From Bacteroidales bacterium (lineage in GTDB: Bacteria; Bacteroidota; Bacteroidia; Bacteroidales; Muribaculaceae), in the NCBI GenBank assembly GCA_030524805.1, contig JAUNFY010000017.1, positions 1-47,619 on the forward strand: a stretch of 47,619 nucleotides of DNA, in the 5' to 3' direction. Below the pieces are notes generated by a model. The model was not told the DNA's origin. It did not search any database and was given only the letters and a program-made list of their open reading frames with translations. The position numbers and the translations under genes were made by a program. Below are positions 20,345 to 22,514 of this stretch, piece by piece (position 1 is the first letter of the stretch; every line of letters starts with the position of its first letter).

Positions 20345-20361
20345 AACAAACGGCGTGCCAA
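20345..20361 (-). promoter_or_regulatory. Candidate sigma-54 (-24/-12) promoter of clpC
   Basis: Minus strand TTGGCACGCCGTTTGTT. It matches the sigma-54 consensus YTGGCACG-N4-TTGCW at every fixed position except the C of the -12 GC, which is T. The -24 block and spacing are exact. It shares the extended form TTTGGCACG-N3-TTTGYTAWT with the motif before groES. Expected transcription start is near 20335. No TAnnTTTG element is seen at a suitable place. Confidence 0.65.
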
Positions 20362-20372
20362 AATGGTCAAAG

Positions 20373-20397
20373 GGCGGAATCTTTTCGGGCTTCCGCC
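20373..20397 (-). terminator. Terminator of groESL
   Basis: Stem GGCGGAA / TTCCGCC with an 11-base loop, about 94 bases past the groEL stop in the direction of transcription. It ends only 11 bp before the clpC sigma-54 motif. The downstream T-tract is weak. Confidence 0.6.
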
Positions 20398-20490
20398 TTC
20401 ACACGGCTTCCCCTGGCAGTTTTATCCTGATTTCAGTTTTATTCTGGGGATGTCTTATGTTGATTACATCCCGGATGGGATGGGTGATGA

Positions 20491-22122
20491 TTACATCATG
20501 CCAGGCATTCCGCCGCCTGCGGGCATTGCGGGAGCCGGGTTGTCTTCTTTCTTGTCGGCGATCACGCATTCGGTGGTGAGGAACATGCCGGCGATAGAGG
20601 CGGCGTTCTCAAGAGCCACGCGGGTAACCTTGGCCGGGTCGATGACGCCGGTGGAGAGGAAGTTCTCGTAGCTGTCGGTGCGTGCGTTGTAGCCGAAGTC
20701 GCCAGTGCCTTCCTTCACTTTCTGAACGATTACGGCACCTTCGAGACCTGCGTTTGCCACAATCTGGCGGAGGGGTTCCTCAATGGCGCGGCGGATGATG
20801 GCGATACCTGTGGTTTCGTCGTTGTTGTCACCCTTGAGCTCGGCAAGCGAGTCGAGGCAACGGATGTAGGCGATGCCGCCGCCGGGCACGATACCTTCTG
20901 CTATAGCGGCGCGGGTAGCGCTGAGGGCGTCGTCCACGCGGTCTTTCTTCTCTTTCATCTCCACTTCGGAGGGAGCGCCGATATAGAGCACGGCAACACC
21001 GCCGGCGAGTTTGGCGAGACGTTCCTGAAGTTTCTCCTTGTCGTATTCAGAAGTGGTGGTCTCGATCTGAGCCTTGATCTGGCCTACGCGGGCAGCGATG
21101 CTGTCTTTGGAGCCGGCGCCGTTTACGATAGTGGTGTTGTCTTTATTGACAGTGACCTTCTCGGCAGTTCCGAGGTCGTTGACAGTGGCCTGCTTGAGCT
21201 GCATGCCTTTCACTTCGCTGATTACGTTGCCGCCAGTGAGGATGGCGATGTCCTCGAGCATTTCCTTGCGACGGTCGCCAAAGCCGGGAGCCTTTACAGC
21301 GCAGATCTTGAGGCTGCCGCGGAGGCGGTTGACTACGAGAGTGGCGAGAGCCTCATTGTCGACGTCTTCCGCGATGATGAGGAGCGGACGGCCTGACTGA
21401 GCCACTGCTTCGAGGATGGGAAGCATCTCCTGGAGATTGGAGATTTTCTTATCGTAGAGAAGGATGTAGGGAGAGTCCATCTCGCATTCCATCTTCTCGG
21501 AGTTGGTGACGAAATAGGGGCTGATGTAGCCGCGGTCGAACTGCATGCCTTCCACCACTTCCACAGTAGTGTCGGTGCCTTTCGCTTCCTCAACGGTGAT
21601 GACGCCTTCTTTCTTCACTTTTTTCATGGCCTCAGCGATGAGACGGCCGATTTCCTCGTCGTTGTTGGCGGAAACGCGTGCAACGTTCTCGATCTTGGCC
21701 ATGTCGTCGTCGACTTCCTGGCTCATGGCGCGGATGCCTTCAACAACTTTGCTGACAGCCTTGTCGATGCCACGCTTGAGGTCCATGGGGTTGGCACCGG
21801 CAGCCACATTCTTGAGGCCTTCGGTGACTATGGCCTGGGCGAGAACGGTAGCTGTTGTAGTTCCGTCGCCGGCCTGGTCGCCTGTTTTCGAAGCCACTTC
21901 CTTCACGAGCTGAGCGCCCATGTTTTCGAAAGCATTGTCAAGTTCGATTTCCTTAGCTACAGTGACACCATCTTTTGTGATGTGGGGAGCGCCGAATTTC
22001 TTCTCGATGATTACGTTGCGGCCTTTGGGGCCGAGAGTTACCTTAACGGCATCGGCGAGAGCGTCGACACCTCTTTTGAGCTCTTCGCGAGCCTGTATGT
22101 TGAATTTGATTTCTTTAGCCAT
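20491..22122 (-). CDS. groL: Chaperonin GroEL (60 kDa)
   Basis: 543 residues of near-textbook Gro[33 protein letters not shown] (ATP site), the apical-domain region and the C-terminal Gly/Met tail GGGMPGMM. Forms the double-ring folding chamber with GroES. It lies 15 bases downstream of groES on the same strand. Confidence 0.99.
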
Positions 22123-22137
22123 GGTGATGTATGAAGC

Positions 22138-22410
22138 TTATGCGATGACGGCGAGAACGTCGTTCTGACGCATGATGATGTATTTCTTGTTTTCGAATTC
22201 GATTTCAGTGCCGGCATATTTGCCATAGAGCACTTCGTCGCCGGGTTTGAGAGTCATTTCCTCGTCTTTGGTTCCGTTACCGACAGCGAGTACTTTGCCA
22301 CGGAGGGGTTTTTCCTTAGCGGAATCGGGGATAATGATTCCGCCCATAGTCACTTCTTCAGCCGCAGTGGGCTCAACGAGCACGCGGTCGCCTAAGGGTT
22401 TGATGTTCAT
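22138..22410 (-). CDS. groS: Co-chaperonin GroES (10 kDa)
   Basis: 90 residues: [14 protein letters not shown] at the start, the mobile loop region ([18 protein letters not shown]) and [13 protein letters not shown]. Caps GroEL. First gene of the groESL operon; ATG at 22410. A sigma-54-like promoter lies upstream at 22498-22514, leaving a leader of about 77 bases. No CIRCE repeat (the HrcA site) is present. Confidence 0.99.
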
Positions 22411-22497
22411 CTCAGATATTCTTTATATAAGGTTATACATTAATAGGTAGGGAGGGTGTCCCGCTGAAGGGGAAAAGCCTCTCCGCGTATTGGGATT

Positions 22498-22514
22498 AGC
22501 AAATATCGTGCCAA
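22498..22514 (-). promoter_or_regulatory. Candidate sigma-54 (-24/-12) promoter of groESL
   Basis: Minus strand TTGGCACGATATTTGCT, a full match to the sigma-54 consensus YTGGCACG-N4-TTGCW. Its -24 GG is at 22511-22512 and -12 GC at 22499-22500. Expected start of transcription is near 22488, 77 bases before the groES ATG. Two inverted repeats lie upstream (22516-22562 and 22578-22607), in the zone where NtrC-type activators bind. Confidence 0.75.

Follow-up and report, generated by a model that had tools for sequence, protein, structure and literature searches.

Which sigma factor and which regulator control the heat-shock genes of Bacteroidales is the question raised by a stretch of 47,619 nucleotides (hereafter the window) from a Bacteroidales bacterium of the family Muribaculaceae (assembly GCA_030524805.1, contig JAUNFY010000017.1, positions 1 to 47,619), in which groES, groEL and clpC follow one another on the reverse strand. 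Heat-shock control in model bacteria usually relies on sigma-32 or on HrcA and its controlling inverted repeat of chaperone expression (CIRCE), and sigma-54 is usually linked to tasks other than heat shock. In Bacteroidota, heat-shock control is little described in the searchable literature, and the sigma-32 and HrcA models seemingly do not apply. A reading made from the sequence alone had proposed that groESL and clpC share a sigma-54-type promoter motif. The follow-up analysis bore this out and pointed to a wider, probable scheme, namely a sigma-54 heat-shock regulon served by an lptE-linked activator and by helically phased TGACA-N3-TGTCA dyads. The features concerned are:

22498..22514, minus strand: groESL sigma-54-type -24/-12 promoter, TTGGCACGATATTTGCT (consensus match, pattern count in the genome, relatives)
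22138..22410, minus strand: groES (Cpn10, 90 aa; Pfam)
20491..22122, minus strand: groEL (Cpn60, 543 aa; Pfam)
20345..20361, minus strand: clpC sigma-54-type -24/-12 promoter, TTGGCACGCCGTTTGTT (consensus match, pattern count in the genome, relatives)
17629..20190, minus strand: clpC, 853 aa, Clp ATPase with Clp_N and AAA domains and a UVR motif (Pfam)

The groES motif (22514-22498) fits the consensus YTGGCACG-N4-TTGCW without mismatch and the clpC motif (20361-20345) with one, GT replacing GC at -12; the sigma-54 core (GG of the -24 and GC of the -12 element at a spacing of 12 bp) is present in both with the same 0 and 1 mismatches. Both motifs extend to TTTGGCACG-N3-TTTGYTAWT, and the Pfam matches (Cpn10, Cpn60, Clp ATPase) identified the two units that they precede as chaperone/protease units, as the sequence-only reading had claimed. 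With -12 placed at the C of the -12 element, the predicted leaders of groES and clpC measure approximately 77 and 144 nt, respectively, up to the ATG. A scan of the window allowing 2 mismatches gave 7 sites vs. 4.5 expected, an unremarkable total, so that the case depends on near-exact sites and their positions. In the 2.91 Mb genome, YTGGCACG-N4-TTGYW occurred exactly at three sites, two of which are those of groES and clpC, while the reversed pattern occurred once. Up to one mismatch to YTGGCACG-N4-TTGCW was found at 15 sites, and the reversed pattern gave 9, which means that chance may account for the majority of the 15. Heat-shock genes (groES, clpC and htpG) lie downstream of three of these sites and an OEP (TolC-type) gene downstream of another; several others were not useful, lying inside genes or lacking a fitting downstream gene. 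One further site of the same genome (C4:10150-10166, L001), TTGGCACGATATTTGTA, shares its core with the groES motif; a 107-aa frame, whose ATG is 129 nt away, lies downstream of it and ahead of a gene that by eye resembles a NAD kinase.

The sequence-only reading had suggested that the motif be sought before other heat-shock genes. It was present upstream of htpG with at most 1 mismatch, and directed looks at dnaK, grpE-dnaJ and clpB gave TTAGCACGCCATTTGTT, TTGGCATAATATTTGCT and TTGGAACGCTATTTGTT, respectively, each with 2 mismatches (three out of three). All six heat-shock units examined in this genome (groES, clpC, htpG, dnaK, grpE and clpB) therefore carry the same control element with at most 2 mismatches within 250 bp. 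For comparison, 3000 random 250-bp stretches, drawn from 97 kb of the same genome and leaving out those that held five known sites, contained a site with at most 1 mismatch in 0.1% and with at most 2 in 0.5% of cases.

The machinery for such promoters is encoded in the genome. A single rpoN gene was found (PF04552, E 1.2e-41, 471-aa open frame), together with two genuine NtrC-type activators (PF00158 with HTH_8, E 4.6e-68 and 3.7e-65); two weaker PF00158 matches, of four in total, were rejected as activators because they are Clp proteins. Control of these genes by HrcA and CIRCE or by a sigma-32-type factor, as in model bacteria, with the motif a product of chance, has in its favor that these are the usual systems elsewhere; their target genes are of the same kind. 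HrcA gave no match in the genome, which at 95.5% completeness makes its absence likely, not proven (7 of 14 control genomes gave a match), and no CIRCE was found in the window with up to 3 mismatches allowed, as had been claimed; HrcA/CIRCE control was rejected on these grounds; no search was aimed at a sigma-32 gene. Given also the conservation of the motif and its recurrence at the six units, we regard this explanation as scarcely conceivable, and control appears instead to proceed through sigma-54 activation. The proposal of a sigma-54 heat-shock regulon thus gains support from rpoN, the activators, the recurrence and conservation of the motif and the failure to find HrcA, and sigma-54 would drive these genes in the organism of the window.

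Conservation was assessed in 300 bp upstream of groES in relatives (the best 80 of 524 matches, which are non-independent and include many Prevotella; 81 rows with the window's own). In line with what the sequence-only reading had required of the motif, it was retained with at most 1 mismatch in 48 of the 80 and with at most 2 in 64, vs. 0 and 5 of the 81 reversed upstream stretches. Mismatches of 0/1/2/3/4/5 were found in 16/33/16/13/2/1 rows (the window's own among the 16; the 5-mismatch row, L033, has only 92 bp upstream), and the reversed stretches gave 5/12/26/34/4 rows at 2/3/4/5/6 mismatches. Across the 76 distinct rows with at most 3 mismatches, mean information was 1.59 bits in the fixed columns, vs. 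0.90 in the N4 spacer and 0.16 in the flanks, figures that are partly so by construction since rows were aligned on their best consensus match; the C at -12 was retained in 61% of these rows. All nine loci of the 80 in which clpC follows groEL carried the clpC motif, one with 0 mismatches and eight with 1, and GCCTTA stood ahead of it in 8 of 9 relatives. For the remaining genes, 31 genomes of the order were sampled, one per family except two in the window's own, yielding 27 dnaK, 28 htpG and 24 clpB matches with the own rows counted in. The motif was found upstream with at most 2 mismatches in 10, 6 and 5 of these, respectively, and in none when reversed.

Which of the two activators serves these promoters can be approached from their architecture and gene order. 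The first carries a receiver domain and lies in a cluster consisting of an OEP (TolC-type) gene, the activator and a kinase. At this locus (C60, L022 3598-6427) TTGGCACGGTTGTTGCG stands just upstream of the OEP gene, and the cluster with its sigma-54-like site is a second sigma-54 circuit. The other activator consists of an AAA+ domain, a lid and a Fis-type helix-turn-helix (HTH), with no receiver or other N-terminal sensor domain, and on this composition (PF00158 with HTH_8) is of the PspF type; downstream of it, on a contig other than that of the window, follow lptE, a gene that we take to be a TPR gene, and secG. PspF-type activators of Escherichia coli likewise combine AAA+ and Fis-type HTH domains, have no receiver domain and are controlled by amount or by a partner. 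The present activator differs from PspF in being encoded with lptE and secG, before groESL in many genomes, and in that its putative sites mostly lie 10-73 bp from the -24 box. Since it has no receiver domain, its control would probably likewise depend on its abundance or on a partner rather than on phosphorylation.

A search with this sensor-less activator gave matches in all 148 genomes of the phylum, paralogues being counted at the threshold used. In the neighborhoods of the best match in 36 other genomes of the class (approximately 8 kb on each side), groES and groEL lay downstream of the activator, on the same strand and within 7 kb, in 27, lptE in 31 and secG in 26. The order activator-lptE-TPR-secG-groES-groEL was kept in the Bacteroidales loci L062, L066, L067 and L086, and a fifth Bacteroidales groES locus had a receiver-type activator upstream. 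The GSFTGA or GAFTGA loop was present in 39 of 41 orthologues. Because of the class-wide gene order, and because the receiver-type activator has its own TolC-type cluster and sigma-54-like site, which leaves the sensor-less one for the chaperones, the lptE/secG-linked activator is likely the best candidate for the chaperone promoters.

TGTCAG/CTGACA repeats stand above the -24 box in many relatives, and the word ACTGACA, found in 35 of 78 groES upstream stretches, pointed to a dyad (counts of 5-bp inverted repeats over the same stretches reached at most 4 of 78 and were not useful). With at most 2 mismatches, CTGACA-N3-TGTCAG was present upstream of dnaK in 10/27, htpG in 14/28, clpB in 5/24 and groES in 38/81 rows. 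Spacers of 2 and 4 gave 0 and 0 for dnaK, 0 and 1 for htpG, 0 and 0 for clpB, and 3 and 15 for groES, and the reversed dyad with spacer 3 gave 0, 1, 0 and 1, respectively. Among flavobacterial-type groES upstream stretches the dyad was found in 11 of 27 (reversed, 0). Per 10 kb, the 79 dnaK, htpG and clpB upstream stretches contained 15.4 dyads, vs. 0.19 for the other 258 kb of these loci. Every six-base dyad (4096 in all) with a spacer of 0-12 was then sought in 64 of these 79 stretches, namely those having a motif of at most 4 mismatches with over 40 bp of sequence upstream of it. TGACAA-N1-TTGTCA, the core of the dyad, ranked first with 33/64, and CTGACA-N3-TGTCAG reached 23/64. In 12 shuffles, which moved two-base blocks and did not exactly preserve dinucleotides, the highest count for any dyad was 11-14 vs. 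the 33 of the real rows; reversed rows had been dropped as a control, since reversal maps dyads onto dyads. A census of exact dyads in the 31 genomes gave 11 sites in 8 genomes and none for the reversed dyad. Five of the 11 precede genes for a small heat-shock protein, clpB, dnaK, a ClpB-like ATPase and lon (frames read by eye), three of these in one genome (G155); one lies inside the grpE frame and five have no identified gene. A sigma-54-like site with at most 3 mismatches lay within 130 bp of three of the five heat-shock dyads, those of the ClpB-like ATPase and lon being the ones without, and one dyad with no identified gene also had a 3-mismatch site.

The distance from dyad to motif fitted a period of 10.5 bp. 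Among rows with a dyad 3-110 bp above a motif that had at most 4 mismatches and held GGCA, gaps clustered at about 10, 20-23, 31-32, 43, 61 and 73 bp, with outliers at 15, 34 and 70. The periodicity at 10.5 bp amounted to R = 0.83 (n = 55), to 0.87 without the groES rows (19) and to 0.74 for all gaps above 15 bp (n = 22), Rayleigh figures that assume independent rows and are hence optimistic; gaps beyond the filter exist, such as 132, 150 and negative ones. This phasing suggests a bound protein that stays on the same face of the helix and contacts the polymerase.

In the resulting scheme, sigma-54 RNA polymerase would transcribe groESL, clpC, htpG, dnaK, grpE-dnaJ and clpB as one regulon of protein quality control (heat shock). 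Its activator would be the lptE/secG-linked sigma-54 AAA+ protein, whose gene is on another contig, with control through amount or partner, and heat or misfolded protein would be the signal. Across the class, the activator is predicted to bind the TGACA-N3-TGTCA dyads at approximately whole helical turns above -24 and to open the promoter with little DNA looping. If activator and dyad hold true, a gene, a site and a spacing rule could be named; sigma-54 activation from promoter-proximal, helix-phased sites would be unusual, and folding stress would be tied through gene order to envelope biogenesis (lptE, secG).

The sequence-only reading had left open whether such control was already described in the group, and it was. 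A 5'-end map of the fish bacterium Flavobacterium psychrophilum from 2021 reports sigma-54-type (SM4) promoters before groES-groEL, dnaK, grpE-dnaJ, htpG, clpB and lon (PMC9723704), and a sigma-54 survey from 2025 reports, as a Bacteroidota-wide statistical trend, enrichment at GroEL, GroES, DnaK, DnaJ, GrpE, small heat-shock proteins, HSP90 and ATP-dependent proteases (PMC12316311). Sigma-54 control of chaperones is therefore known in the phylum, and the window adds clpC, which is not in the published selection of the F. psychrophilum map, and a Bacteroidales case. The accessible text of the map does not contain "heat shock", mentions induction on blood agar and under some further conditions, and considers that distinct activators might serve different promoter clusters; it names neither a chaperone activator nor an upstream dyad, and its promoter mutagenesis concerned a gliding operon, not a chaperone gene. 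Similar to the present gene order, a probable sigma-54-dependent regulator and lptE (THC0290_0733/0732) are 3-4 locus numbers from groES (0729) in F. psychrophilum, but the regulator-lptE promoter is of another type, SM5 (PMC9723704). The survey works statistically by COG, and its accessible part gives no activator or binding site for heat-shock genes; for sigma-54 dependence of GroES and GrpE in Bacteroides thetaiotaomicron it cites its reference 80, whose title is that of a Blattabacterium paper (PMC12316311). Of two other papers, the accessible text of PMC10434189 contains "sigma-54-dependent" and "groES", and that of PMC3162934 has no word beginning with Bacteroid-. The role of the activator and the dyad were not found in titles and abstract openings of the open literature, nor was the literal dyad sequence found in a search of it; this scope leaves out subscription papers and preprints, so novelty is not proven, and the activator assignment and the phased dyad may be the new part.

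A different division of labor should be considered, in which sigma-54 transcribes the chaperone genes but the two-component activator acts on them, alone or together with the sensor-less one, and the dyad belongs to another DNA-binding protein, activator or repressor. The genome does hold two activators, the present data do not indicate which protein binds the dyad, and in Bacteroidales the lptE-linked gene seldom adjoins groESL (see below). The two-component activator, however, sits in the TolC-type cluster with a sigma-54-like site of its own, and it is the lptE-linked one that precedes groESL in 27 of the 36 genomes of the class. Among 41 orthologues of the lptE-linked activator, 38 share the recognition segment GISERTLYR and 2 have GISQRTLYR; in the genome of the window, which has no exact dyad, the segment reads QISLRTLYR. 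We therefore consider this alternative unlikely, and the lptE-linked activator would be the protein that binds the dyad.

Another explanation takes TTGGCA not as a -24 box but as an extra TGKCA half-site of a dyad-binding regulator, with sigma-A or an extracytoplasmic function sigma factor transcribing the genes. TTGGCA does resemble the half-site TTGTCA, their most common gap is constant, and Porphyromonas keeps the dyad where its sigma-54 motif is poor. On the other side, information content reaches 1.65-1.90 bits in the columns around -12 (T at motif positions 12 and 13, G at 15), of which position 12 lies outside the consensus used for alignment, and the motif persists in upstream stretches that have no dyad, as in the window's own family. 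Furthermore, TAnnTTTG, the -7 box of the housekeeping sigma factor of Bacteroidota (PMC7366714), was not found within 250 bp before groES or 300 bp before clpC, and a sigma-A promoter at these genes was rejected for this reason. The motif of F. psychrophilum, finally, was derived from mapped 5' ends (PMC9723704). Together these points render the half-site explanation highly improbable and favor sigma-54.

Several observations weigh against the sigma-54 regulon with its lptE-linked activator and dyads. Of the Bacteroidales loci (best 80 of 524), just 4 of the 80 have the activator next to groESL, a count limited by the 15 loci that hold less than 4.5 kb upstream, and this weakens the scheme; in the genome of the window it is not beside groESL, and in 9 of the 36 genomes of the class there is no groES within 7 kb after it. 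A dyad with at most 2 mismatches is missing from over half of the dnaK upstream stretches and from at least half of those of htpG and of clpB. The opposite order, TGTCAG..CTGACA, peaks at up to 6/27 for dnaK, 7/28 for htpG and 16/81 for groES (in groES, 16 at spacer 10 and 15 at spacer 1). The flavobacterial-type groES upstream stretches have 3-5 mismatches to the sigma-54 consensus in 26 of 27 cases, barely better than the 3-6 of their reversed counterparts. Both Porphyromonas loci (L053, L061) combine a poor groES motif of 3-4 mismatches with a dyad that has 2; these bacteria may have a changed regulon. The accessible text of B. thetaiotaomicron transcriptome papers contains neither "sigma54" nor "RpoN". 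The family of the window itself is the last such point: the conserved dyad expected of an upstream activating sequence is seen in many relatives, whereas the best dyad matches above the six motifs of the window's genome have 3-6 mismatches and no exact dyad was found in that genome, and among the best 80 of 524 the dyad stood at groES in only 1 of 16 loci titled Muribaculum or Muribaculaceae.

In the same set, loci titled Porphyromonadaceae had the dyad in 1 of 12 and the rest in 36 of 52; when Muribaculaceae-like loci were split from others by their place in the list, a division made post hoc, the counts were 1/27 vs. 37/53. The other genome of the family argues against a clean loss of the dyad, since in it a dyad with 2 mismatches stands at dnaK (3 mismatches at htpG, 4 at clpB). 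AACAAT-N12-ATTGTT came out top when an activator site was sought at the Muribaculaceae-like groES loci and was dropped, since at 10/27 it tied with poly-T dyads. A further-reaching version of the scheme would make the one sensor-less lptE/secG-linked activator the class-wide master regulator of heat shock, acting from dyads 1-4 helical turns above -24 rather than from a distant looped enhancer, its recognition helix and sites having changed together in Muribaculaceae (rewiring in place). The helix change, GISE to QISL, was seen in one genome, and the near-dyad kept at dnaK within the family lowers this version, which we put forward as possible and somewhat doubtful.

Two features of the window and a hairpin of other loci remain to be described:

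20373..20397, minus strand: GGCGGAA...TTCCGCC hairpin in the gap between groEL and the clpC motif (by eye)
22580..22605, no strand assigned: 26-bp near-perfect palindrome AACGATTCGCCATTTGGCGAATCGTT (by eye)

The hairpin was not among the results of the terminator scan; with it, the order in the window reads groES-groEL-[hairpin, motif]-clpC, and the groESL transcript perhaps ends there. The palindrome lies between groES and the next upstream gene, about 65 bp above the groES motif and beside a CCCTAACCCTTAACCCC-like tract, and was not seen in those groES upstream stretches of relatives that were inspected. At L145, L147-L149, L151 and L156, the gap between secG and groES contains a TGCCAGC...GCTGGCATTTTT hairpin that resembles a terminator and has dyad half-sites in its arms and loop; the same DNA may thus serve both termination and binding of the activator.

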